A stretch of 64,000 nucleotides of DNA from Armatimonas rosea (GTDB lineage Bacteria > Armatimonadota > Armatimonadia > Armatimonadales > Armatimonadaceae). The notes under the pieces were generated by a model. It made no database searches. It was not told the DNA's origin and worked only from the letters and a program-made list of their open reading frames with translations. Positions 2,126-59,621 of this stretch are shown here, one piece after another. Made by a program: the position numbers and the translations under genes. Each line of letters starts with the position of its first letter. Position 1 is the stretch's first letter. Where the stretch lies: the NCBI RefSeq assembly GCF_014202505.1, contig NZ_JACHGW010000001.1, positions 930,001 through 994,000 on the forward strand, read 5' to 3'.

Positions 2126-4699
2126 CTACTCCTCGGTGGGGGGCGGAGCGGGGAGCTCGCCCAGGGTTCCGGGGGCGGCGGCGATTGCGGCGGGGGTGGA
2201 CTCCTCGCCGATCTCGCGGAGCGTGTCCTCGAGCTCCTTCTTGCGGAAGATCACCACGGAGTCGTCGCCCTCGCCGTCCAGCTCGGCCAGGACAATATCG
2301 CCGGCGCTGAAGCGGCCTAGGAGCACCTCTTCGGCCAGCGGATCCTCGATCAGGCGCTGCACCGAGCGGCGGAGCGGACGGGCACCGTAGGTCGGGTCGA
2401 AGCCATCCGCGGCGAGCTTGTCCATCACGGGGTCGGAGACCTCTAGGACAAGATCGTGCTGCTCCAGCTGCTTGCGCACGCTGCCCAGCATCAGATCGAC
2501 AATCTGGCGGATGTTCTGCGCGGTCAGAGCATGGAAGACAATGGTCTCATCGATTCGGTTGACAAACTCCGGTCGGAACGCACGCTTGACCTCGTCCATG
2601 ACCTTGTTCTTCATGCCCGTGTAGTCGCGCTCGGTCTCGTCCTTGGGCTTGTTGCTGCCCCGGAGCCCGATCTGCGGCTCGCGGTGGATGATGTGCGCGC
2701 CGATGTTGCTCGTCATGATCAGCACGGTGTTCTTAAAGTCCACCACGCGGCCCTGCGAGTCGGTCAGGCGGCCGTCTTCCATCACTTGCAGCAGCAGGTT
2801 GAAGACCTCGGGGTGTGCCTTCTCGACCTCATCGAGGAGCACCACGGCGTAGGGGTTGCGCCGCACCGCCTCGGTGAGCTGCCCGCCTTCGTCGTAGCCG
2901 ACGTAGCCAGGAGGGGCCCCGACCAGGCGGCTGACCGCGAAGCGCTCCATGTACTCGGACATGTCGATTCGGATCAGGTTCTCTTCTTTCTGGAACAAGA
3001 ACGCTGCCAGGGCGCGTGCCAGCTCGGTCTTTCCCACCCCGGTGGGGCCGAGGAAGAGGAACGAGCCGATGGGGCGCTTGGGGTCTTTCAGGCCGGAGCG
3101 GGCGCGGCGGATCGCCTTGCTGACCGCGATAATGGCCTCTTTCTGGCTGATGACGCGCTTGCCCAGCGCCTCTTCCATCTGGAGGAGCTTCTGGGTCTCG
3201 GTCTCGACCAAGCGGTTGACGGGGATACCGGTCCAGGCAAAGACCACTTGGGCGATATCGTCGTCATCGACCACCAGCTCCAGCCCCTCGCGCTCGGCGT
3301 CCCAGCGGGCTTGCAGGTCGTTGATGCGCTGGGTGAGGTAGTTCTGCTGGTCCTCGAGGAAGTTCACCCGGTCGAAGTCGCCTTCGTCGGGGAGGCGTCC
3401 CAGCTCTTTCTCCACCTGGATCAGCTCGGCCTTGGCCTCGCGCAGGGGCTGCGGAGCCGTGGCGGCCTTCAGGCGGACCTTGGACGATGCCTCGTCGATC
3501 AGGTCGATTGCCTTGTCGGGGAGGTGCCGGTCGGTGATGTAGCGGTCCGCGAGGCGGCAGGCGGCCTCCAGTGCGGTGTCCTTGATCTCGACCTTGTGGT
3601 GCTCCTCGTAGCGGTGGCGCAGGCCCTTGAGGATCTCGACTGCCTCCTCCACACTAGGCTCGTCCACCTTCACCATCTGGAAGCGTCGCGCGAGGGCGGC
3701 GTCCTTCTCGATGTACTTGCGGTACTCATCCAGCGTGGTCGCGCCGATACACTGGAGCTCGCCGCGGGAGAGGGCGGGCTTCATGATATTGCTGGCATCG
3801 ATCGCGCCCTCGGCGGCACCCGCACCAACCACGGTGTGGAGCTCGTCGATAAAGAGAATGATCTCGCCATTGGCCTTGCGGACCTCGTCCATCACCCGCT
3901 TCATGCGCTCTTCAAACTCGCCGCGGTACTTGGTGCCCGCGACTAGGCCGGCAAGATCGAGCGAGATCAGGCGCTTGTCCTTGAGCATCTCGGGGATGTC
4001 CTGCATCACGATCCGGGTGGCGAGCCCCTCGGCGATCGCGGTCTTGCCGACGCCGGGCATTCCGACCAGCACGGGGTTGTTCTTGGTGCGACGGGAGAGG
4101 ATCTGAATGACCCGCTCGATCTCCTCGGCGCGCCCCACGACCGGGTCGAGCTTGTCGTTGCGGGCGTAGTCGGTCAGGTCGCGGCCAAACTCATCCAGGG
4201 TGGGGGTGCGGGAGCGCTGGTCCTTGCTGGGCGCGCCACGGCCGGCGGCCACGGGCTGACCGGGCTCCTGGTCCTGGAGCAGGCGCACCTCGCGGCGGGT
4301 GCGCTCCAGATCGACTCCCAGCTTCCCCAGGACACGACCCGCCAGACCCTCGCCCTCGCGGATCAGCCCGAGGAGCAGGTGCTCTGTGCCGATGTAGTTG
4401 TTGCCCAGCTGCCGGGCTTCGTCGTAGGCTAGGTCGATCACCCGCTTGGCTCTTGGGGTCAGCTGCATCTCCGGCCCCATACGCCCATCGCCGCGTGCCA
4501 CTTGACGCTCGATCTCGGCGCGAATCCGGCCTAGAGAGACCCCGATCCGATCGAGAATGCGAGCGGCGACGCTGTCATTCTCCTTGACCAGACCGAGCAG
4601 AAGATGCTCCGTCGAAACATAGTTCTCGCCCAGGCGCCCTGCTTCTTCCTGTGCGAAGAAAACCACGCGGCGCGCGCGCTCGGTGAATCGTTGCCACAT
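2126..4699 (-). CDS. clpC: ATP-dependent Clp protease ATP-binding subunit ClpC
   Basis: Hsp100 unfoldase that feeds substrates to ClpP. About 857 residues, usual for ClpC. Two N-terminal Clp repeats ([10 protein letters not shown] and [10 protein letters not shown]) are followed by NBD1 with Walker [10 protein letters not shown] near residue 215, a short middle domain, and NBD2 with [11 protein letters not shown]. The C-terminus has a low-complexity acidic/proline tail. I start at ATG 4699 ([11 protein letters not shown]), the family start. A TTG two codons upstream is an alternative. The hexamer TACAAT at 4712-4707 lies 7 nt before this ATG, suggesting a leaderless transcript. A second paralogue lies at 34505-36904 in the hspR operon. 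Compared with ClpB, the middle domain is too short for a disaggregase. Confidence 0.96.
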
Positions 4700-4842
4700 G
4701 GACAAGATTGTATCGCACTTGCCCCCCCCCTTGCTCCCTCACCGTTCGGCTAGCGGGGCTCGAACGTCCTGCACGGTAAACGTGCGGCTATAGGGCGTCG
4801 TACCTCCGCCGCCTCGCTTCGCTCGGTATATACCGTCGAGGG
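4700..4842 (-). promoter_or_regulatory. clpC upstream region with -10 element and perfect 12-bp palindrome
   Basis: On the minus strand TACAAT (4712-4707) is a good -10 hexamer 7 nt from the clpC ATG. No convincing -35 is visible. The region also holds a perfect palindrome CGGTATATACCG at 4824-4835 and an inverted pair CGTTCG..CGAACG at about 4744-4767. No HAIR-type operator was found here, in contrast to dnaK and dnaJ. Confidence 0.45.
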
Positions 4843-19295: not shown

Positions 19296-19901
19296 TTAGA
19301 ACCGAAATGCCTGCTGGGCGACCGGGCCAAACGTGCGGCGGTGGATCGGGCAGGGGCCGTGTTTGTCGAGGGCGGCGAGATGGCTCGCGGCGCCGTAGCC
19401 CTTGTGTCCGGCAAAGCCGTACTCCGGCCAGCGTGTATCATACTCGATCAGGAGCCGATCACGAGTCACTTTTGCCAGAATTGAGGCCGCGCCAATGGAG
19501 ACGCAGCGGGAGTCGCCGCCGATCAGGTTGAGGCAGTCGGGGTGGAGGTTGGGGACGGGCAGGCCATCGACAAAGACCCGGTCGGGGGAGACCGAGAGCG
19601 CGGCGAGGGCGCGGCGCATGGCCTCATGCGTGGCGCGCAGGATATTGATCCTGTCGATCTCCTCCGCGTCGCACTGCCCGATCCCCCAGCTCAGTGCCTC
19701 GGCGACAATGCGCTCGTAGGCACGCTCGCGCTGCTTGGCGGTCAGCTTCTTGGAGTCGCCGATCCCGGTTGGGTCGAATCCCTCAGGGAGGACCACGGCG
19801 GCTGCGAGCACCGGCCCGGCAAGGCAGCCCCGCCCAACCTCGTCGATCCCACAGAGAATGCGCTTGCCCTCACTACGAGCGCTGGCCTCAAAGTTCTCCA
19901 T
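19296..19901 (-). CDS. rnhB: Ribonuclease HII
   Basis: 201 residues from ATG 19901 (MENFEASARSEG); an upstream in-frame extension would overlap lepB and lacks family similarity. Removes RNA from RNA-DNA hybrids and single misincorporated ribonucleotides. Catalytic acidic residues are visible in GIDEVGRGCLAGPV (Asp and Glu), VFVDGLP and the KVTRDRL segment; GDSKKLTAKQRE is also a family signature. It is the last gene of the ffh-to-rnhB operon, 8 nt after lepB. Confidence 0.96.
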   Translation of the reverse strand: MENFEASARSEGKRILCGIDEVGRGCLAGPVLAAAVVLPEGFDPTGIGDSKKLTAKQRERAYERIVAEALSWGIGQCDAEEIDRINILRATHEAMRRALAALSVSPDRVFVDGLPVPNLHPDCLNLIGGDSRCVSIGAASILAKVTRDRLLIEYDTRWPEYGFAGHKGYGAASHLAALDKHGPCPIHRRTFGPVAQQAFRF

Positions 19902-19909
19902 AGACAAGC

Positions 19910-20746
19910 CTAGCGTGTCCGCCGGATGCGGGGGAGGGGCCAGAAGATTCCCTCGGCGCGCCCGATAATCCGGTCCTGCTTGAGCTCGTACCACTCGTGG
20001 GAGTCGTGGGACTGGTTGCGGTTGTCTCCCAGGACAAAGTAGCTTCCCGGAGGAACCGTGTAGGGGGGGAACTCGTACTCCGGGTCCTCGGCGATATAGT
20101 CCTCCAGCAAGGTCTCGCCGTTGCGGAGGAGCTTGCCGGGCTGGATCTCGACCGGCGCGCCACGACGGTCCACCCGGATCGCGAACTCCTCCGGGCTGAT
20201 GGTCTGCGCTCCCACGGAGATTCCCTTGCGGGTCAGGTGGAGCGAGGGAGCCGGCGGAGCACCCGGCTCGTCGGTGTCGGGTAGGCCCAGGATGCCGCGG
20301 ATCTCGGCGTGGCTGTAGTGGATCCCGCCCACCTCGACATAGCCGCCCTGGACCTCAATCGTATCGCCGGGCAGGCCGATCAGGCGCTTGATGTACTCGG
20401 GCTCGCTACGGTCGGCATCGGGGGGGGCCTTAAAGACCACGATCTCACCGCGGCGGGGGGCACGCAGGCGGTAGAGGAGCTTGTTGACCACGAGGTGGTC
20501 GCCCTCGATCAGGGTCGGGTGCATCGACGGGCTGGGGATGTGGTAGGTCTGGAGCACAAAGGGACGCAGAAGCAGGAAGACCAGCGCCACCGCCAGCATC
20601 GCCGACTCGGTGAGCTCGGCAAAGAAGAGAAAGAAGCTATGCTTGAGCGCGCGAAGCACCAGCCGCGCGACAGTTAACCCCGCCAGAAACAAGACGATGG
20701 TGGGCAAGGAAAGATTCGCGATGCGCTCCGTCCAAGTCTCCACCAT
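19910..20746 (-). CDS. lepB: Signal peptidase I
   Basis: 278 residues. Two or three N-terminal hydrophobic segments anchor it in the membrane. The catalytic serine is in IPSPSMHPTL and the general-base lysine in EYIKRLIGLPGDTIEV; the box GDNRNQSHDS is also present. It cleaves signal peptides of exported preproteins, fitting its position with ffh in one operon. There is an insertion of about 30 residues after HYSHAEIRG. A short palindrome of the CCCCCTAGCCCC type lies between its start and the rplS stop. Confidence 0.96.
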   Translation of the reverse strand: MVETWTERIANLSLPTIVLFLAGLTVARLVLRALKHSFFLFFAELTESAMLAVALVFLLLRPFVLQTYHIPSPSMHPTLIEGDHLVVNKLLYRLRAPRRGEIVVFKAPPDADRSEPEYIKRLIGLPGDTIEVQGGYVEVGGIHYSHAEIRGILGLPDTDEPGAPPAPSLHLTRKGISVGAQTISPEEFAIRVDRRGAPVEIQPGKLLRNGETLLEDYIAEDPEYEFPPYTVPPGSYFVLGDNRNQSHDSHEWYELKQDRIIGRAEGIFWPLPRIRRTR

Positions 20747-22081: not shown

Positions 22082-22567
22082 CTACTTCAGGAGGCCAGGG
22101 TCATCCGAGACAACCATCCGGCCTGCTTCCAGGTCTACAGAGAGCACGAACTGCGCGTGGGCAGGAATCAGCGCAAGGCTCGTCTCATACACATCGTTTG
22201 CCGCGGGGTTGTACAGGATCGTCTCCAGTACCCCCAGGTCCTTCCCGGACTCCGTCACGACCGCAAGGCCCTTGAGCTGCCAGTCGTAGTAGGCCCCTTC
22301 CGGGAGGGAGGGAAGCTCGGATTTCGGAAGAAAGAGCTGGATGCCGCGCAGAGACTCTGCGGCGGTGCGGTCTTTCCCCTCAAAGTGAACCAGGACGGTT
22401 CCCTGGTGCAGTCGAATACTCTCAATACGGCTTGGCTGACCGTGGAGCAAGAAGGTCTTGCCCACCAGCGAAGTCGGTTCATCCAGATACGGGAGAAGCT
22501 TAACCTCCCCCTTCATACCGAAGGGGGCAGTGATTTCTCCGACTAAAACGAGTTTGTCGCTTTCCAT
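22082..22567 (-). CDS. rimM: Ribosome maturation factor RimM
   Basis: 161 residues. N-terminal RimM domain (LVGEITAPFGMKGEVKLLP) and C-terminal PRC-barrel domain (DWQLKGLAVVTESGKDLGV). Assists 30S head assembly by binding S19. I prefer ATG 22567 because GAGGGG lies 5 nt ahead of it; a GTG one codon upstream is also possible. It is followed directly by trmD. Confidence 0.95.
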   Translation of the reverse strand: MESDKLVLVGEITAPFGMKGEVKLLPYLDEPTSLVGKTFLLHGQPSRIESIRLHQGTVLVHFEGKDRTAAESLRGIQLFLPKSELPSLPEGAYYDWQLKGLAVVTESGKDLGVLETILYNPAANDVYETSLALIPAHAQFVLSVDLEAGRMVVSDDPGLLK

Positions 22568-22614
22568 CACAGCCCCTCGCGTGTTCGGTGCGCTTCAATC
22601 TAGCGTCAATTTCG

Positions 22615-32684: not shown

Positions 32685-32757
32685 GGCCCCGTGGTCTAAA
32701 GGTCAGGATAGCGGTCTTTCACGCCGTTGGTGACGGGTTCAAGTCCCGCCGGGGCTA
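32685..32757 (+). tRNA. tRNA-Glu(TTC)
   Basis: Acceptor GGCCCCG/CGGGGCT, anticodon loop CTTTCAC, T-arm GACGGGTTCAAGTCCCGCC. No encoded CCA. First gene of the array, 2 nt after a terminator T-tract. Confidence 0.95.
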
Positions 32758-32774
32758 TGTGTGTTTTGTGTTTT

Positions 32775-32846
32775 GCGCCTGTGGTGTAGCGGTCAACATC
32801 TCAGACTGTCGCTCTGAAGAGGCGGGTTCGATTCCCGTCAGGCGCG
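32775..32846 (+). tRNA. tRNA-Asp(GTC)
   Basis: Acceptor GCGCCTG/CAGGCGC, anticodon stem TCAGA/TCTGA around CTGTCGC, discriminator G. No encoded CCA. Confidence 0.96.
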
Positions 32847-32851
32847 GTTAA

Positions 32852-32875
32852 TCTCTTGTAGCTCAGCTGGTAGAG
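32852..32875 (+). pseudogene. 5' fragment of tRNA-Asn (24 nt), left repeat of the inserted unit
   Basis: TCTCTTG plus TAGCTCAGCTGGTAGAG reproduces the acceptor 5' strand and D-arm of tRNA-Asn at 33307, with only the order of two bases changed in the acceptor; 19 nt are identical (32857-32875 and 33312-33330). It breaks off before the anticodon stem, exactly where the AT-rich unit begins. Joined to the 3' part of tRNA-Asn it would make a foldable tRNA, so it is the displaced original 5' end. Confidence 0.85.
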
Positions 32876-32910
32876 TTGGTTTGAAAACGAATGTTTGCTA
32901 TAATGCTAGC
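32876..32910 (+). promoter_or_regulatory. Leaderless promoter of the endonuclease gene
   Basis: TTGGTT (32876-32881), spacer of 17 nt, TATAAT (32899-32904), then 6 nt to the ATG at 32911. It starts at the very first base of the insert. There is no ribosome-binding site, so transcription probably starts at the start codon. Confidence 0.8.
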
Positions 32911-33306
32911 ATGGATACAAAGGCTAAAGGTGATCGTTCGGTAGCTATGATAATGGCAGCATTTATTAAGAAAGGTATGAACGTGCTAATACCTTTTGGA
33001 GACAACTGTCGTTATGATCTCGTGACAGAAAGAGATGGCATATTTTCAAAAATACAATGTAAAAGTGGAAGGCTCAAAAATGGAGTAGTTAAATTTAAGA
33101 CATGTAGCACATATTCACACAGAAATGGTGGGAGCCGAGATTATAAAGGAGAAGTAGATTTTTTTGGTGTTTATTGTTTTGAGAATGAGAAAATATATCT
33201 TGTTCCTGTTAATGATGTCGGAATTCGTATGGGAGTTCTGCGTATTGATGAAACGAAGAATTGCCAGACTAAGTTCGTTCGTATGGCGAATATATATGAG
33301 ATGTAA
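32911..33306 (+). CDS. PD-(D/E)XK endonuclease, I-Ssp6803I / PDDEXK_5-like
   Basis: 131 residues from ATG 32911 (MDTKAKGDRSVAMIM). The core fits the PDDEXK_5 family related to the homing endonuclease I-Ssp6803I, which cuts a tRNA-fMet gene: GD near the N-terminus (D8), PFGDNCRYDLV with Asp36, and IQCKSGR with Gln49-x-Lys51, the Q-x-K variant of the E-x-K motif. GEVDFFGVYCFENEKIYLVP is the usual C-terminal half. Codon use is AT-rich and foreign to the genome. The TAA stop ends at 33306, one base before tRNA-Asn. It likely cleaves tRNA-Asn-like DNA; activity is inferred. Confidence 0.85.
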   Translation: MDTKAKGDRSVAMIMAAFIKKGMNVLIPFGDNCRYDLVTERDGIFSKIQCKSGRLKNGVVKFKTCSTYSHRNGGSRDYKGEVDFFGVYCFENEKIYLVPVNDVGIRMGVLRIDETKNCQTKFVRMANIYEM

Positions 33307-33379
33307 TCTTCTGTAGCTCAGCTGGTAGAGCGCCGGTCTGTTAAACCGGATGTCGGGGGTTCGAGTCCCTCCGGGAGAG
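33307..33379 (+). tRNA. tRNA-Asn(GTT)
   Basis: Acceptor TCTTCTG/CGGGAGA (two G-T pairs), anticodon arm CCGGTCTGTTAAACCGG, T-arm with GGGTTCGAGTCCC, discriminator G. Complete and probably functional. Its first base directly follows the endonuclease stop codon. Confidence 0.95.
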
Positions 33380-33389
33380 TTTTGGGTTT

Positions 33390-33463
33390 GCCTTTGTAGC
33401 TCAATTGGATAGAGCAGTGGCCTACGAAGCCAACGGTTGCGGGTTCAACTCCTGCCAAAGGTG
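33390..33463 (+). tRNA. tRNA-Arg(ACG)
   Basis: Acceptor GCCTTTG/CAAAGGT, anticodon loop CTACGAA, T-arm GCGGGTTCAACTCCTGC. A34 would need TadA editing to inosine. Confidence 0.94.
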
Positions 33464-33488
33464 TTTAATTGCAAGTTTTGCAAGCTAA

Positions 33489-33569
33489 GGAAGGTGAATG
33501 TGCAAGGTGCACAGGCTGTCTTGAAAACAGCTCAGGCGAAAGCTGGGGGTTCGACTCCTCCGCCTTCCG
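33489..33569 (+). tRNA. tRNA-Ser(TGA)
   Basis: Acceptor GGAAGGT/GCCTTCC, anticodon stem GCTGT/ACAGC around CTTGAAA, class II variable arm, discriminator G as usual for serine. Confidence 0.93.
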
Positions 33570-33575
33570 TGTGAA

Positions 33576-33618
33576 CCCCGGCTCGCTGGGGCTCGCCACC
33601 CCTCGCAAGCGAAGGGTT
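33576..33618. repeat. 27-bp dispersed repeat with hairpins between two tRNA-Ser genes
   Basis: 33576-33602 (starting CCCCGGCTCGCTGGGG, ending CGCCACCCC) is identical, in reverse complement, to 58687-58713 inside the GH20 gene. It contains a hairpin CCCC..GGGG and is followed by a second hairpin CCCTCGC..GCGAAGGG (33600-33616). Confidence 0.85.
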
Positions 33619-33621
33619 TTG

Positions 33622-33713
33622 GGAGAGTAAACCTAGCAGGGGCTGGGACCTCGGTGCTAACGAGTGGGCGCAGGGCGAAAACTCTGCGTGCGGTTCGAGT
33701 CCGCTGCTCTCCG
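33622..33713 (+). tRNA. tRNA-Ser(GCT)
   Basis: Acceptor GGAGAGT/GCTCTCC, anticodon loop GTGCTAA, long variable arm (about 22 nt), discriminator G. Confidence 0.93.
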
Positions 33714-33736
33714 TTCCCCCCGGGAGGGGAGAATAT

Positions 33737-33809
33737 TCGTGGATGGTGTAATCGGCAACACGTCTGTTTCTGGAACAGAAAAGTCCTGGTTCGACTCCAG
33801 GTCCACGAG
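33737..33809 (+). tRNA. tRNA-Gln(CTG)
   Basis: Acceptor TCGTGGA/TCCACGA, anticodon stem TCTGT/ACAGA around TTCTGGA, T-arm CCTGGTTCGACTCCAGG. Confidence 0.95.
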
Positions 33810-33828
33810 CTTGGAAAACGGAAAATAG

Positions 33829-33902
33829 GCCCCTTTAGCCCAATTGGTAGAGGCGCATGGCTTAGGACCATGTCAGTGTGGGTTCGAATCCCATGGGGGG
33901 CA
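33829..33902 (+). tRNA. tRNA with Leu anticodon TAG but short variable loop
   Basis: Acceptor GCCCCTT/GGGGGGC, D-arm GCCC/GGC with loop AATTGGTAGA, anticodon stem CATGG/CCATG around CTTAGGA, G37, A73. The variable loop is only 5 nt (TCAGT), whereas bacterial tRNA-Leu normally has a class II arm. Length 74 nt. Anticodon and A73 point to leucine, but the amino acid is uncertain. Confidence 0.75.
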
Positions 33903-33972
33903 TCTACGCCCAATGAAATTAGGCGTTTGCAGTGCCACTGCAGACGCCGGGTTCAACCGGCGGTCTGGGATG
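33903..33972 (+). pseudogene. Degenerate tRNA-like sequence (Gly GCC-type anticodon arm)
   Basis: D-stem CGCC/GGCG, a perfect anticodon stem TTGCA/TGCAG around GTGCCAC (anticodon GCC), and a T-like arm GCCGG/CCGGC with a shortened loop. No acceptor stem can be paired. Likely a decayed tRNA or a structured tRNA remnant. Confidence 0.4.
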
Positions 33973-33973
33973 G

Positions 33974-34047
33974 TTGCAGGTGGTGTAATGGGCAACATGC
34001 CTGCCTTTGAAGCAGGAGATTTCCCGGTTCGAGGCCGGGCCTGCAAG
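33974..34047 (+). tRNA. tRNA-Gln(TTG)
   Basis: Acceptor TTGCAGG/CCTGCAA, anticodon stem CCTGC/GCAGG around CTTTGAA, T-arm CCCGGTTCGAGGCCGGG. Second glutamine isoacceptor in the array. Confidence 0.94.
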
Positions 34048-34073
34048 TCAAAAAAGAGAGAACGAAAGAGTTT

Positions 34074-34159
34074 GCCGGAGTGGTCGAGTGGTTCAAGACG
34101 GCAGCCTGCAAAGCTGCTGCGCCTTGTGCGTATCGCGGGTTCGAATCCCGCCTCCGGCT
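34074..34159 (+). tRNA. tRNA-Cys(GCA) with long variable arm
   Basis: Acceptor GCCGGAG/CTCCGGC, anticodon stem GCAGC/GCTGC around CTGCAAA, discriminator U73, which together with the GCA anticodon is the Cys identity set. The variable region is about 17 nt and can pair as TGCGC/GTGCG around CTT, giving an 86-nt class II shape instead of the usual class I form for tRNA-Cys. Confidence 0.85.
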
Positions 34160-34169
34160 TTTGGTTCGT

Positions 34170-34246
34170 GCCCCGGTTGCGTCCAATGGGTAGAGACACG
34201 CTGCTTAAGACAGTGAACGGTGTCGGTTCGAATCCGACTCGGGGCA
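34170..34246 (+). tRNA. tRNA with Leu anticodon TAA, short variable loop and irregular D-arm
   Basis: Acceptor GCCCCGG/TCGGGGC, anticodon stem CGCTG/CAGTG around CTTAAGA, T-arm GTCGG/CCGAC, A73. Variable loop about 6 nt. Four bases (TTGC) instead of two separate the acceptor from the D-stem. Leucine by anticodon, but the fold is unusual. Confidence 0.65.
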
Positions 34247-34251
34247 TTTTT

Positions 34252-34327
34252 CTCCCTGTACCCCAATTTGGTAGAGGGCGCACGTCGAGAGCGTGTGAAT
34301 GTGTCGGTTCGAGTCCGACCAGGGAGA
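34252..34327 (+). tRNA. tRNA with Leu anticodon GAG and short variable loop
   Basis: Acceptor CTCCCTG/CAGGGAG, TA at positions 8-9, D-arm CCC/GGG, anticodon stem GCACG/CGTGT around TCGAGAG, A73. Variable loop about 6 nt. With anticodon GAG, base 33 is C instead of U. Read as CGA (Ser) it would have U33 but a stem mismatch, so identity is uncertain. Confidence 0.65.
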
Positions 34328-34332
34328 CTTGT

Positions 34333-34406
34333 GGAGGGTGTGGCGAAGGGGTAAACGCGCCTGACTGTGGCTCAGGTAATCGCGGGTTCAAATCCCGTCA
34401 CTCTCC
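34333..34406 (+). tRNA. tRNA-His(GTG)
   Basis: Anticodon stem CCTGA/TCAGG around CTGTGGC. The acceptor has an extra G-1 pairing with C73, the histidine hallmark. T-arm GCGGGTTCAAATCCCGT. Last gene of the array. Confidence 0.94.
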
Positions 34407-34504: not shown

Positions 34505-36904
<2,400 letters not shown>

Positions 36905-42737: not shown

Positions 42738-43721
42738 TCACTTCCCACGCTCCTTTAGCCAGCTATAGGCCAGCACGGTAAAGAGGGTGACCGCTTGGAG
42801 CACCTGGATCACGACTGATGAGACCCCGGCGCTTTGGACCTCGGTGGCACCGGCGGTGAGGGCACCGAAGAACAGCGCAGTGACGATGGTCCAGAGTGGG
42901 GATAAGTTGGCCAGCAGGGCAACCGCGATGGCGGTGTAGCCGTAGCCCTTGGAGTACGGGTCGGCGAGGAAGTAGGTGACCCCGCAGATCTGGATCGCGC
43001 CCGCCAGGCCCGAGAGCGCGCCCGAGAGCAGAAAAGTGAGCCAGGTGGTCTTGGCCACGGAGATTCCCGCTGCCGCTGCCGCCTCCGCCCCCGCCCCGAC
43101 CGCACGCAGCGCAAACCCCGAGGCGGTCTTGGCAAGGTAGGCCCAGGCCACGACTGCGAGCACGAGCGCTAAGAGAAAACCCTGGTGGAGCTGTGTCCCC
43201 GGCCAAAGAAAGGCGAGCCGCCCCGGGATCGCGAGCTTGTCGGACTGGGGGTACTGCTTGACCGCCTCTTGCAAGGGGCCACGCACCATCCAGGCGACCA
43301 GCTGGATGGCGACAAAGTTGAGCAGGAGGGTCGAGAGCACCTCTTGGACCCCACGCCAGAGCTTGAGCGCCGCCGCCAGCCCCGCCCAGAGCGCCCCGCC
43401 CAGAGCGCCGGCTGCAAGCGCGACAGGCAGGAGGAGGGGCGCAGGGAGCTTCTGTGTCCCCGCCCAGATCGCAAAGACCGCCCCGAGCAGGAACTGCCCC
43501 TCGGCCCCGATATTAAACAGCTTGCCCTTAAACGCCAGCCCGACCCCAAGCCCGGTGAGCAGGAGCGGCGTGGTCTGGAGGAGCGTGTTGGCGAGGCTAT
43601 CTTTGGAGCCAAACGCCCCGCGTGCCAGCGCCGCCGCCACGGCAAGGGGGGAGGCTTTGGCGGCTAAGATGACAGCGGCTAAGAGTAGCAAGCCCCCGAA
43701 GATACATGCAATGAGCTTCAC
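42738..43721 (-). CDS. BMP-type nucleoside/purine ABC importer, permease 1
   Basis: 327 residues, multiple helices, GLGVGLAFKGKLFNIGAEGQ is the family signature (NupP/YufP type). Its ATG overlaps the ATPase stop by 4 nt. Forms a heterodimeric channel with the other permease. Confidence 0.92.
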   Translation of the reverse strand: MKLIACIFGGLLLLAAVILAAKASPLAVAAALARGAFGSKDSLANTLLQTTPLLLTGLGVGLAFKGKLFNIGAEGQFLLGAVFAIWAGTQKLPAPLLLPVALAAGALGGALWAGLAAALKLWRGVQEVLSTLLLNFVAIQLVAWMVRGPLQEAVKQYPQSDKLAIPGRLAFLWPGTQLHQGFLLALVLAVVAWAYLAKTASGFALRAVGAGAEAAAAAGISVAKTTWLTFLLSGALSGLAGAIQICGVTYFLADPYSKGYGYTAIAVALLANLSPLWTIVTALFFGALTAGATEVQSAGVSSVVIQVLQAVTLFTVLAYSWLKERGK

Positions 43722-45445
43722 CGTGCGCCTCCCATCAGCCGGCCTAGGTCCTCGCGCGGAGTCTCGGGGGAGACAATGCCCATCAGCTTGCCGTCGAAGA
43801 GGACCGCGACTCGGTCCGAGAGGGTAAGGACTTCGTCGAGCTCCGTGGAGATCAAGACAATGGCCGCGCCGCTTGCCTGTGCCTCGCGCAGGGCCTTGTG
43901 GACATAAGAGATCGCGCCCACATCGAGGCCACGGGTGGGGTTGACCGCGACAACGATCTTCGGCTCGCCCGCCAGCGCACGCGCGATCACAACCTTCTGC
44001 TGGTTGCCCCCCGAGAGGCTGCTCGCCTTTGCGTCGGGGCCCTCGGCACGGATATCAAAGCGCTGGATGAGCTGCTCGGCGCGGGCACGGAGCGCCTTGG
44101 CTTTGAGAAAGACGCTTTTTCTAAACTCTGGGCTATCTTGGACACCCAGCGTCAGGTTCTCGGTGATGGTCAGCTCCAGCGCGAGGCCACGCTTCTGGCG
44201 ATCTGCGGGAATCACCCCGATCCGGGCATCGCGCACGGCGGTGGGAGTGGGTACCAGCGGCTGACCACCGACCCGAATCTCGCCCTGGGGGGGCCTTGCC
44301 ATCCCGGAGAGGCAGTCGGCAAGCTCGGTCTGGCCGTTGCCATCGACGCCCGCAAAGCCCAGAATCTCGCCCGGCGCGACCGTAAATGAGATCGCGTTGA
44401 GCTTGCCGAGGGTGAGGTTGTGGACGGTGAGGGGGATCTCTTTGACTTCCAGCTCCCTGCCGCCGCTTCGCGCCATCTCCCTGCCGCTGAGACGGCTTCC
44501 CTCTTCCCCTATTGCTCCTTCGTCGCGGGAAGAGGGACTGTCTGGAATGCCCCTCTTCCTAGCGAGGGACGAGCGATCTAGGGAAGAGGGGAGGCGAGGA
44601 ACGAGCCGGGGAGATGGCCCGGGGGAGATGGCCTGCGGAGATGGCACCGGCTGACTCCCCACCATCGCCTCGGCCAGCATTCCTGCATCGCACTCGGCGG
44701 TGACGAGGCGCTCCACGACTTTTCCGCGCCGCAGGACTGTCACGCGCTCCGAGAGGGCGAGAACTTCATCGAGCTTGTGGGAGATAAAGACAATCCCTTT
44801 CCCCTCGGCGGCGAGCTGGCGCAGGGTGGCGAAGAGCTCGGGGGTCTCGGTGGGGGTGAGGACGGCGGTGGGCTCGTCGAAGATCAGGACACGGGTCTGG
44901 CCACGCAGGGCCTTGAGGATCTCGATCCGCTGCTGGGTCCCGACGGGCAAGCTCCCCGCAGGCGCGTCCCAGGGAATTGTCCAGCCGAGCCGCTGCGCCA
45001 GCTCTTGTGCCTCGGCGAGGACGCTCTTCATCGGCCAGGAGAGGGGGCCGCCCTTGCCCTTATCGGCGGAGAGCAGGAGGTTCTCCGCGACCGAGAGCGG
45101 GGGGACGAGCAAGAAGTGCTGGTGGACCATGCCGATCCCCTGCGCGGTGGCATCGGCGGGGGAGGCGAAGCGGGTGGGAGTGCCCTCTAGGAGTAGCTCC
45201 CCTGCACTCGGGCGCAGGAGGCCCGAGAGGATATTCATCAGGGTGGACTTGCCCGCGCCATTCTCCCCCAGCACGGCATGGATCTCTCCCGCACGCAGGT
45301 CGAAGTCGACCGAGTCGAGCGCGGTGAAGCTGCCAAAGCGGCGGGTGAGGGCGCGGGCCTCTAAGAGATTGTCCCCCCCTAGCCCCCGTTCGACAGAGGA
45401 AAAGGCTCCCCCGTCGGACGGGGGCGGGGGGGGCGGGTTTTCCAC
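43718..45445 (-). CDS. BMP-type nucleoside/purine ABC importer, double ATPase, with in-frame repeat insertions
   Basis: 575 residues; relatives are about 510. First NBD: Walker A GENGAGKSTLMNIL, signature-like LPVGTQQRIEIL. Second NBD: degenerate Walker A GVDGNGQTE, signature SLSGGNQQK, as usual for RbsA/YufO proteins. Residues about 270-327, in the linker between the NBDs, are encoded by a palindromic repeat also found in the GH20 gene. Residues about 4-26 (NPPPPPPSDGGAF and on) are encoded by another repeat. The GTG start overlaps the TAG stop of the binding-protein gene. Both insertions keep the frame, so the protein may still work. Confidence 0.92.
   Translation of the reverse strand: MENPPPPPPSDGGAFSSVERGLGGDNLLEARALTRRFGSFTALDSVDFDLRAGEIHAVLGENGAGKSTLMNILSGLLRPSAGELLLEGTPTRFASPADATAQGIGMVHQHFLLVPPLSVAENLLLSADKGKGGPLSWPMKSVLAEAQELAQRLGWTIPWDAPAGSLPVGTQQRIEILKALRGQTRVLIFDEPTAVLTPTETPELFATLRQLAAEGKGIVFISHKLDEVLALSERVTVLRRGKVVERLVTAECDAGMLAEAMVGSQPVPSPQAISPGPSPRLVPRLPSSLDRSSLARKRGIPDSPSSRDEGAIGEEGSRLSGREMARSGGRELEVKEIPLTVHNLTLGKLNAISFTVAPGEILGFAGVDGNGQTELADCLSGMARPPQGEIRVGGQPLVPTPTAVRDARIGVIPADRQKRGLALELTITENLTLGVQDSPEFRKSVFLKAKALRARAEQLIQRFDIRAEGPDAKASSLSGGNQQKVVIARALAGEPKIVVAVNPTRGLDVGAISYVHKALREAQASGAAIVLISTELDEVLTLSDRVAVLFDGKLMGIVSPETPREDLGRLMGGAR
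44464..44635. repeat. In-frame composite palindromic repeat inside the importer ATPase gene
   Basis: Two adjacent palindromes: CCCTCTTCCCC..GGGAAGAGGG (about 44489-44536) and CCCCTCTTCCTAG..CTAGGGAAGAGGGG (44550-44592). 44583-44618 is identical over 36 nt, in reverse complement, to 58895-58930 in the GH20 gene, and CCGCTTCGCG plus CTCCTTCGTCGC also recur there. The total length is compatible with the reading frame. Confidence 0.85.
45368..45435. repeat. CCCCCTAGCCCC-type palindrome forming the 5' end of the importer ATPase gene
   Basis: CCCCCCCTAGCCCCCGTTCG and CGGACGGGGGCGGGGG are the arms. Translated on the minus strand as Pro- and Gly-rich residues before the conserved first strand LEARALTRRFG. 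Confidence 0.75.
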
Positions 45446-57077: not shown

Positions 57078-59621
57078 TTATACCAACCCTGTCGCGGCGT
57101 GGACGAGCAGCCCAGACTCTCCGTTGGCGCTAGTGATCGTTATCGTGCCGCCGCTGGGGATCGTCAGGCTCCGCAGCCCCGGCGCGACCGTGCGTGCGCT
57201 CGGGTCCGAGAGCGCACTGGGATCGTCGCTGGTGGAGAGATTCACCCCGTAGACCAGCGCCGTCTCTTTTCCCTTGACGGTCACGGTTCCGACGACTGTC
57301 CCCCGCTCGGTTTTATGGGTCGCTGCGATAATCAGCCGCAGCTCGGTCGTGCCGTGAAGCTCCAGTGTGAGGGAGAGCGGTGCGGGCTCGGTGAGCTTTC
57401 CGGCGAGCAGGGTGGGGGCGAGACGGTAGAGGACCCCATCGCTCAGGCGCGCCTCGCGTGCCTTGCCGGGGAGCTGCGCCACCGCGCCGGGGCGTGGCTT
57501 GGTGGGCTGGGTTTGCTTCTCGCCCCAGAGGCGCGTGAAGACCTCGCCGGCATCCCAACGGGGCTTGGTTGCGCCGCCGTTCCAGAAGTGCTCTGCGGCC
57601 AGTACCATCGCCACAAACTGCCGCCGCTCCGGGCCATCGAGTACCTCGGCCTTGGACTCGTAGCCGCACCAGGTGGTCTGCAGGCCGCCCCACGCGCCGA
57701 CCTCTGCGGCCGCCTTGGCGAACCCCGAGACATTGCCCGGATTGAACCAGGTGCAGGCCACGAGCCGCGAGAACCCGGCGTCGCGGAGCTTCTTCAGCGA
57801 CGGAAACGTCTGATGCGCTCCGTACTGCCAGTCAAACAAGACAATGTCTTTGGGGAGGCCGTCGCGAACCGCCTTGGCATCGGCGGCACTGGGAGCGGTG
57901 CCAAAGCACGGGGCCACCTCCGACGGGTGCAGCGCCATGTCGGCCCACATCCACATTTCCTTGCCGCGTTTTTTATGGAAGGCCTGCCAGTGCTTGGCAT
58001 TGCTCACAAAGAGCTCGGAGAAGGTGCGGGGGGCGGAGCGGTACGGAAAGCGCCCGCGCATGGTCACTTCATCGAGGCCCGCATGAAACGCCGGGGCCCC
58101 GAACAAATCATCTGCCTCCGCGACCAGCCGCTCCAGGTAGCCTACCGCGGCGGGGTTGGAGATATTGACCGCGTAGGGCAGCTCCGGGTCCTCGGCGAAG
58201 GCCCGGTTCTGCGGCTTGTTGAAGAGCCACTCCATGTGGCCGTAGCTCTGCACCAGCGGGGTCAGCGTGATCCCGTGCGCCTTGGCAAAGGCAATCTCCT
58301 CCTTGACCGCCGCCTTCGTGCCGCCCCAGCTCGGGGCCACCGACGGGTCGCTCTCCCACTTGAGCTGCTCGCACTGGATCACCAGGTGGTTGAGCTTAAA
58401 GGGCGAGTAGAGACGCTCAATGAGCTTTTTCTGAAACGGGAGCGCGTTCTGCCCGTGGAACAAGTGCACGCCGCGAAAGCCCAGGGTCGGCCAGTCCTCG
58501 ATCTCGACCGAGTGAATGACTTGCCCGCGCTCATCGCTATCGAGGAGCTGGAGCAAGGTCTGCGCCGCCCAGAGTGTCCCGGCCGTATCGCTGCCTACGA
58601 GCTGGATGCGATCTTTGCGCACCGAGACCGTGTACGACTCCGGCCTACTCCCCCCCTTCGCAGCGCCCCCCTTCGCGGAGCTGGAGGGGGTGGCGAGCCC
58701 CAGCGAGCCGGGGGAGGAAGATAACAATGCAATCGCGCGCTCCGCACCGGGGCCGAGGACTTCGATCTTGGTCTTGTCTGTCAGGCGCACGGGCGGGCCG
58801 GTGACCGTGAGCTTCTTGGGGGTGGGGATCACCAGCGGGGTCTTGGCGGCTTGCGGGACGAAGGCATCTTTTTGGCCCCTAGCCCCGCTTCGCGGCCATC
58901 TCCCCGGCTCGTTCCTCGCCTCCCCTCTTCCCCTAATAGCTCCTTCGTCGCTGGGAAGAGGGGCAAATGTGATGGTGAAGGTCGCGGCCTGTTCGCCGTC
59001 GGCGAAACGCACCGGGCGGGGAGGGGAGCCCAGGCCGAGCCAGAAGATCGGGGCGGCTTGGGCCCACTCGAAGGGCTCCTTGCGTGCATCGAAGCAGACC
59101 GGTAGCTCGGATTTTTGGGTGCTGTGCCAGCCAAAGGCCACCTGTCCGAGCTTGGTCTCGAAGGCGAGCTTGCGAAACGGCGGCCCGAGGCGGCGCTCGT
59201 CCTGGGAGCCGGTGAGCGGCGTGAGGGGGACGGTTGCCAGGCGGGTGTCGCCGCTGAGGGGAGCGCCCTCCAGCAGGTTCGCATTGACATAGCCCGCCGC
59301 CCATTCTAGCTCCGCGGGGATATCGGACTTCAGGCGGTAGCGCAGAGTGGTCGTAACAGCGTTTTCCGTGACTAGCCACTCTAGGGCGACCGCAGCGCTC
59401 TCGTTCTCGGCACTCACCTCGGCCTGCCAGCTCTCACCGGTCTTGTGCCAGCCCGTCTCGCTCCAGCGGACCGTGGTGGGGTTGAAGAGCACCCCGCTCC
59501 AGCCGGCCTTGACCAGGTAGAGCGTGGAGCGCCGGATCACGGGGACACCGTCTAGGGTGACACGGAGGCCATTTGCCGGTGTCCAGGCAACCGAGAGACG
59601 ACCCAGGGAGAGGGGGCTCAT
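57078..59621 (-). CDS. GH20-type beta-N-acetylhexosaminidase-like protein with in-frame repeat insertions
   Basis: 847 residues. N-terminal beta domain (1-215), then a GH20b-type domain (VIPTPKKLTVTGPPVRLTDK) and the TIM barrel with FRGVHLFHGQNALP and HAGLDEVTMRGR (Asp-Glu catalytic pair), then C-terminal beta domains. No signal peptide. Residues about 219-249 (DEGAIRGRGEARNEPGRW region) and about 300-325 (SSPGSLGLATPSSSAKGG region) are encoded by palindromic repeats found elsewhere in the window; both lie in linker or loop positions. ATG overlaps the DUF2141 stop. Confidence 0.85.
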   Translation of the reverse strand: MSPLSLGRLSVAWTPANGLRVTLDGVPVIRRSTLYLVKAGWSGVLFNPTTVRWSETGWHKTGESWQAEVSAENESAAVALEWLVTENAVTTTLRYRLKSDIPAELEWAAGYVNANLLEGAPLSGDTRLATVPLTPLTGSQDERRLGPPFRKLAFETKLGQVAFGWHSTQKSELPVCFDARKEPFEWAQAAPIFWLGLGSPPRPVRFADGEQAATFTITFAPLPSDEGAIRGRGEARNEPGRWPRSGARGQKDAFVPQAAKTPLVIPTPKKLTVTGPPVRLTDKTKIEVLGPGAERAIALLSSSPGSLGLATPSSSAKGGAAKGGSRPESYTVSVRKDRIQLVGSDTAGTLWAAQTLLQLLDSDERGQVIHSVEIEDWPTLGFRGVHLFHGQNALPFQKKLIERLYSPFKLNHLVIQCEQLKWESDPSVAPSWGGTKAAVKEEIAFAKAHGITLTPLVQSYGHMEWLFNKPQNRAFAEDPELPYAVNISNPAAVGYLERLVAEADDLFGAPAFHAGLDEVTMRGRFPYRSAPRTFSELFVSNAKHWQAFHKKRGKEMWMWADMALHPSEVAPCFGTAPSAADAKAVRDGLPKDIVLFDWQYGAHQTFPSLKKLRDAGFSRLVACTWFNPGNVSGFAKAAAEVGAWGGLQTTWCGYESKAEVLDGPERRQFVAMVLAAEHFWNGGATKPRWDAGEVFTRLWGEKQTQPTKPRPGAVAQLPGKAREARLSDGVLYRLAPTLLAGKLTEPAPLSLTLELHGTTELRLIIAATHKTERGTVVGTVTVKGKETALVYGVNLSTSDDPSALSDPSARTVAPGLRSLTIPSGGTITITSANGESGLLVHAATGLV
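58645..58720. repeat. In-frame palindromic repeat 2 in the GH20 gene
   Basis: 58687-58713 is an exact reverse complement of 33576-33602 in the tRNA array. Flanking arms CCCCCCCTTCGCAGCGCCCC and GGAGCTGGAGGGGGT extend the palindrome. Translated as a Ser/Gly/Ala/Lys-rich loop. Confidence 0.85.
58866..58967. repeat. In-frame palindromic repeat 1 in the GH20 gene
   Basis: CCCCTAGCCCCGCTTCGCGG followed by 58895-58930, which matches 44583-44618 over 36 nt in reverse complement, and by the palindrome CCCCTCTTCCCC..GGGAAGAGGGG enclosing CTCCTTCGTCGC. The same blocks occur in the importer ATPase gene. Confidence 0.85.

Follow-up and report, generated by a model that had tools for sequence, protein, structure and literature searches.

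How does a palindromic repeat come to lie inside the coding sequence of a GH20-like glycoside hydrolase gene without closing its reading frame? The gene is located in a 64,000-nucleotide stretch of the Armatimonas rosea genome (hereafter 'the window'), and a first-pass annotation had proposed that the repeat, shared with an ABC transporter ATPase gene in the same window, might be selected for frame-compatible, soluble peptides. The gene carries the GH20 label because of domain 2 alone (residues 262-377 of the ORF), which was its sole Pfam match at E ≤ 0.001, with no match to the GH20 catalytic domain at that threshold. The interval 58866-58967, corresponding to residues 219 to ~252 of the protein, includes a single arm of a repeat family that we call F1, comprising a hairpin (CCCCTCTTCCC..GGGGAAGAGGGG), a small tail hairpin (GGCGAGGAACGAGCC) and an end (GGGGAGATGGC). 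The arm lies upstream of GH20 domain 2 in the protein, at a domain boundary as the annotation had placed it, and the ORF stays open through the arm, with DEGAIRGRGEAR as a predicted peptide spanning the insert. The segment adjoining the F1 end resembles the GCGAAGCGG tails that also trail some other F1 copies.

A second palindrome in the same ORF, which the annotation does not mention, belongs to a separate family, F2. With 40 candidates scored in each genome, F2 has at least 46 matches in this genome, at least 20 in the congener genome G001 and at least 45 in G017, which represents a different family of the same order. The G001 ortholog of the GH20-like gene is 80% identical and unbroken, with no stop. 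At the position of the F1 arm it carries another hairpin, of family X (CCTCCTCCC-AATCCT-GGGAGGAGG), for which scoring of 40 among 145 candidates gave at least 96 matches in G001; the A. rosea genome has 13, most of them weak. At the position of the F2 palindrome G001 has other DNA, which resembles a decayed F1 tail.

Table 1. Host genes and palindromic elements in the window (positions are those of the window).
Feature	Position	Strand	Details
ABC transporter ATPase gene, F1 host	43718-45445	(-)	575 aa
Two-arm F1 element, ABC ATPase linker	44472-44632	.	in frame, between both ABC domains
First arm of that element	44472-44536	(-)	
Second arm of that element	44550-44618	(+)	
GH20-like glycoside hydrolase gene, F1 host	57078-59621	(-)	847 aa ORF
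Second palindrome, family F2, in GH20-like ORF	58645-58735	(-)	residues ~296-326
Segment adjoining F1 end, CGCGAAGCGGGGCTAGGGG + flank	58866-58894	(-)	coding in GH20-like ORF
Solo F1 arm in GH20-like ORF	58895-58963	(-)	69 nt, profile E 1e-15

The presence of a common repeat in the two genes was borne out: a block of 72 nt in the GH20-like gene (58894-58965), in frame in its ORF, is 89% complementary to 44548-44619 in the ATPase gene. Both proteins do contain the peptide DEGAI, as had been noticed, but the common frame does not extend beyond that block; directly after it the frames diverge, the ATPase continuing with GEEGSRLSGREMA and the GH20-like protein with RGRGEARNEPGRWP. The two copies also differ in type: the GH20-like gene holds a single arm, and the ATPase gene a pair of arms that are inverted around a 13-nt spacer, with the second terminal repeat running to 44632.

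We searched the entire genome (6,325,924 bases in 19 contigs) for further copies. With 40 of its 72 candidates scored, the interval 58866-58967 yielded at least 54 matches (E ≤ 10), and a bare hairpin pattern produced 51 + 45 hits genome-wide, as compared to 1 + 0 with a reversed control pattern; F1 is repeated far beyond chance. A profile built from 42 arms (MAFFT alignment A1) and run on stretches fetched around the hits recovered 69 arms, a few of the weakest of which may not be F1, in 46 clusters (hereafter 'sites'). They include 21 two-arm inverted copies, 20 of them spanning 147-186 nt and one truncated to 86 nt, with terminal inverted repeats GCCATCTC...GAGATGGC; the remaining 27 arms are solo, split or weak. 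Each arm (65-84 nt) is made up of a long CCYCTCTTCCC/GGGAAGAGRGG-type stem that encloses an inner loop module, followed by a tail hairpin and then by GRGAGATGGC. In strict counts of the pyrimidine/purine hairpin, the opposite orientation was rare. A scan of 84,980 species with the strict F1 pattern, from which the A. rosea genome itself may be absent, returned 15 stretches, ten of them in JAPLCP01 (a Lake Pavin MAG, which is G001) and the other five as single hits in unrelated MAGs that are probably due to chance.

Using a simple codon-score gene caller (coding fraction 0.905), we found 16 of the 46 F1 sites within called ORFs (p ~5e-20). Since some 90% of the DNA is coding, we conclude that selection acts strongly against F1 in genes. 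Among 796,732 blind-sampled bases of G001, 8 of 25 F1 or X sites were in genes, against a coding fraction of 0.918. Invasion of coding sequence in frame is well founded in both genomes, although two of the 16 cases are doubtful: L064 lies close to where an aminotransferase ORF starts, and L081 is in a 214-aa ORF without a Pfam match. Had copies been almost always intergenic and free of frame bias, the annotation's view would have been refuted. This is so by half: most are indeed intergenic (30 of 46) and the bias described below is weak, but a third lie in genes. The 16 sites are spread over 14 genes, one PKS/NRPS gene holding three, and most fall between or outside Pfam domains: between the ABC domains, before GH20b, after FtsX, before PSD1, between Trans_reg_C and AAA, between Wzy_C and TPR, and between PP-binding and thioesterase domains. 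The clear exception is NRPS site 2, inside an AMP-binding match, and sites in a Mur ligase and a GH2 protein are probably also inside domains. Of the 38 gene 3' ends that flank the 30 intergenic sites, 28 are ≤22 nt away, and divergent gene pairs flank just two of these sites, the remainder being convergent or tandem. Several intergenic copies (L055, L079, L080 and L083) start ≤1 base from a gene end, and some of these supply the G of a TAG stop codon. GTAG REPs are likewise reported to supply the stop-codon G at gene ends, in the excerpted text of PMC3733652.

Orthologous intervals of G001 were available for 13 of the 46 F1 sites (12 two-sided, plus FtsX through a protein search). Seven have a different hairpin in G001 (ABC, GH20, C2:478128, a phosphoesterase gene, NRPS site 2, C5:271142 and FtsX), three have F1 in both genomes (C2:754155, C4:802095 and NRPS site 3), two have no hairpin (a DEAD helicase and C2:124392) and one has an offset element (C2:937731, with X ~300 nt away), a count that is biased in that many G001 stretches were fetched through repeat hits. 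The six sites reached without repeat hits (ABC, GH20, phosphoesterase and FtsX, protein search; helicase and C2:478128, blind contigs) gave a different hairpin in five cases and none in one, the DEAD helicase, which is a blind-sampled in-gene F1 site. At the ABC, GH20, phosphoesterase and FtsX sites, the orthologs align on both sides of the insert. The G001 ortholog of the ABC ATPase lacks F1 and has its other hairpin in the linker; this hairpin and that at C5:271142 are counted here as hairpins, not as members of a repeat family, and the A. rosea arm at C5:271142 is itself a weak F1 match (E 0.05). Recognised X or F1 sites number 25 in 797 kb of G001, or ~1 per 32 kb, so that the chance of finding one in a given 200-bp interval is ~0.6% and that of finding at least four in six is ~1e-8 if sites are uniform, a figure that is overstated because permissive sites are fewer than uniformity assumes.

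Two further cases stand outside this count: the F2 site in the GH20-like gene, and L064/L181 (X in G001, F1 in A. rosea), which the script left unpaired because A. rosea carries ~800 nt extra. In the reverse direction, two X sites (window 19858-19919 and L091:7167-7205), away from F1 sites, have no F1 in the A. rosea orthologs, and therefore not all sites are common. On the 3' side of one gene, an A. rosea F2 element and a G001 two-arm F1 element occupy the same place (L063:443-687 and L209:1584-1908). In another G001 gene (L178:2789-3143), which by eye we take to resemble uroporphyrinogen-III synthase, family X lies in frame, and A. rosea has F1 ahead of that gene. There is a precedent for orthologs with different palindrome families at the same site in the RPE, palindromic repeats of several families that occur in frame in Rickettsia protein genes (PMC2229807, PMC10969869, PMC3767692, each as excerpted). 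For R. japonica, where the RPE family at a given site differs between orthologs, the excerpted account leaves open whether such sites are hot spots or the products of divergence (PMC3767692).

The same choice arises here. The phosphoesterase insert is absent from sister genera (G007, twice, G008, G006 and G014), as is the FtsX insert (G008, G007, G005 and G012), and both therefore look like insertions within the genus. One explanation is that inserts of 100-150 bp are tolerated in few protein loops and at few gene ends, and that families insert at these hot spots separately in each species, as was raised for RPE-4/6/7 in the excerpted part of PMC3767692. The clustering of F1 sites in linkers and at 3' ends would agree with this, as would the occupation of different places by F1 and F2 in the one GH20-like gene. 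The breakpoints of the A. rosea and G001 inserts differ by ~6-18 nt at FtsX; this difference, with NRPS site 2 the sole coincidence, leaves room for independent insertion. Against it, both boundaries at NRPS site 2 agree within ~1 base, and a different hairpin occupies five of the six less biased sites although X and F1 are as sparse in G001 as stated above. Taken together, we regard separate insertion at hot spots as unlikely, though it is the alternative that we take most seriously. The congener, the empty sites in sister genera and the intermediate copies make the choice between an RPE hot spot and a single, diverged insertion testable.

One pair of copies bears on how such sequences change. 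The ABC element (C1:974472) and an element in the gene of a TPR regulator (C2:1344920) differ at one base over ~120 nt, spacer included; their tail hairpins then differ, one being GGCGAGGAACGAGCC and the other GCGCTCTAAGGCGC, after which they are again nearly identical through the second terminal repeat, with matches at 136 of 147 positions. Such near-identical copies in unrelated genes show that a whole unit was copied and that one module was replaced. Across 53 arms, stem and tail are associated (p 0.0002), stem and loop weakly so (p 0.009), and loop and tail are nearly independent (p 0.15), which argues that modules have been reshuffled. In copies of F1, F2 and X, mini-palindromes are also nested within loops, and together with the module swap they favour exchange between palindromes.

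We believe that F1 is probably a selfish, non-autonomous mosaic palindrome of the RPE/REP kind, which linkers tolerate and which is overwritten in place. Its full unit consists of two inverted arms, and whole units have copied to new places, as the near-identical pair shows. Selection would remove most insertions in genes, as their depletion there suggests, and the survivors would be those just past stop codons and those in linkers, the latter mostly interdomain, which may tolerate the stop-free Pro/Ser/Arg/Glu/Gly peptide that F1 encodes; frame compatibility would stem from composition, not from frame selection. A lodged palindrome would then change in sequence as hairpin modules are exchanged (as seen inside one genome), either when similar palindromes undergo ectopic conversion or template switching, or when a new element enters the old palindrome and the old one is then lost, both of which are putative routes. 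As a bolder extension, offered tentatively, palindromes that entered genes a single time in a common ancestor could be permanent slots whose modules are repeatedly overwritten by the dominant family of the genome, such that concerted evolution of selfish DNA, and not protein selection, would determine linker sequence.

Mobilisation of the kind described for REPINs, in which the arms would be REP units and the inverted pair a mobile doublet moved by a RAYT (Y1) transposase, seems to us improbable. The 21 inverted two-arm copies, the many solo arms and the intergenic copies at gene 3' ends fit it, and the genome has seven Y1 transposase (Y1_Tnp) genes, but neither F1 (0 of 7 loci) nor a pyrimidine/purine hairpin was found within 1.5 kb on either side of them, and GTAG and CGTC (the end tag of RPE-4/6) are each present near the 5' end in just 3 of 58 arms. 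No transposase tied to F1 was found, nor any obvious target-site duplication in the listed flanks or reciprocal sites (judged without statistics), nor an autonomous parent (GRGAGATGGC was mapped genome-wide, and some of the pairs were examined for a gene between them).

A role in RNA, as a terminator or mRNA-stabilising hairpin with accidental in-gene copies, has a similarly small chance of being correct. Intergenic F1 lies directly past stop codons, in convergent or tandem settings, and its paired bases are conserved: the loop module was recognised in 57 of 58 full arms, every one of which has, by script count, two complementary closing pairs (GC..GC 43, AC..GT 7, GT..AC 5, and one each of CC..GG and the wobble form GC..GT), with RNAalifold reporting a single compensatory pair on alignment A1 because loop lengths shift the columns. 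Yet the solo arm folds just moderately better than shuffled sequences (z -2.47).

The proposed selection for frame and solubility fared worst. F1-encoded peptides are indeed of a soluble type, the used frames having a mean GRAVY of -1.07 as compared to -0.10 for host proteins, but other open frames of the same in-gene arms come close to that value (-0.87; p 0.09 against used frames). Open frames are not enriched, with means of 3.80 of six for in-gene arms and 4.37 for intergenic arms, against 3.78 and 4.01 in dinucleotide shuffles. Nor is length constrained modulo 3: among two-arm copies, 4 of the 7 in genes and 8 of the 14 between genes have a length divisible by 3. Frame bias across copies is slight: the 20 full in-gene arms, 12 sense (phases 8, 3, 1) and 8 antisense (6, 2, 0), use five of the six frames. 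The commonest sense frame holds 8 of 12 arms, with a p of 0.02 that is uncorrected, treats arms as independent and counts two elements that are recent copies of each other; antisense arms show no excess (p 0.31). Frame tolerance most plausibly follows from a base composition that is GC-rich and poor in stops. Stop codons consist of T followed by purines, and the pyrimidine/purine stem strands of F1 could therefore hardly hold one; stops would arise mainly in loops and tails. Stop-poor composition can thus give frame compatibility without selection. That F1 is kept in genes as a useful, selected soluble linker is very unlikely: its peptides are linker-like and inserts persist, with differing sequences, in conserved genes of two species, but these frame and length results, the use of both strands and the strong depletion from genes all speak against it.

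Small, dispersed, hairpin-forming repeats that are mobile and sometimes intragenic are known from Nostoc. Among better described systems, as far as the excerpted sources go, RPE and the Wolbachia palindromic elements resemble F1 in being palindromic repeats of similar length (100-150 bp), in forming several families and in entering unrelated genes without breaking them (PMC3767692, PMC2229807, PMC10969869). F1 differs from RPE in its host (an Armatimonadota genus with a 6.3-Mb genome), in being GC-rich and mosaic, with two arms and exchangeable loop and tail modules, and in its strong depletion from genes; the likeness considered here is one of architecture and placement. REPs and REPINs share with F1 the inverted doublets and singlets, the mostly extragenic location and the preference for gene 3' ends, and in several species some REPs are also found within genes, where they may occupy linkers (excerpts of PMC3116915 and PMC3733652); F1 arms are longer (REPs are 20-40 nt) and have neither the GTAG tag nor a neighbouring RAYT. 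MITEs such as ERIC, Correia and RUP are likewise short with terminal inverted repeats, and some form in-frame fusions, but the excerpted text of PMC2229807 describes them as mostly A+T-rich, in contrast to F1. In-frame palindromes in genes and the sharing of sites are already known; within the open-access literature, part of it in excerpt, we found no paper on such repeats in Armatimonadota and none with evidence of a module swap. The RPE-like way of life, best known from Rickettsia and Wolbachia, is thereby extended to a genus of another phylum. For annotation, F1-type elements explain odd Pro/Ser/Arg-rich inserts in this group.

Several additional features were observed. A replicative helicase gene (DnaB-like; L084, from ~4301; C2:1315333) contains a block running from CLTART... 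to VHNT, which we presume to be intein-like. In the window itself, nine tRNA genes are clustered on the + strand at 32685-34406, and a short hairpin (CCCCCTTC ATACC GAAGGGGG) at 22507-22527, near the start of the ORF at 22082-22570(-), may be another small palindrome. Two large paralogous ORFs, at 2126-4705 and 34505-36904, share several blocks that are 75-79% identical; our impression is that they probably encode Clp-type ATPases.
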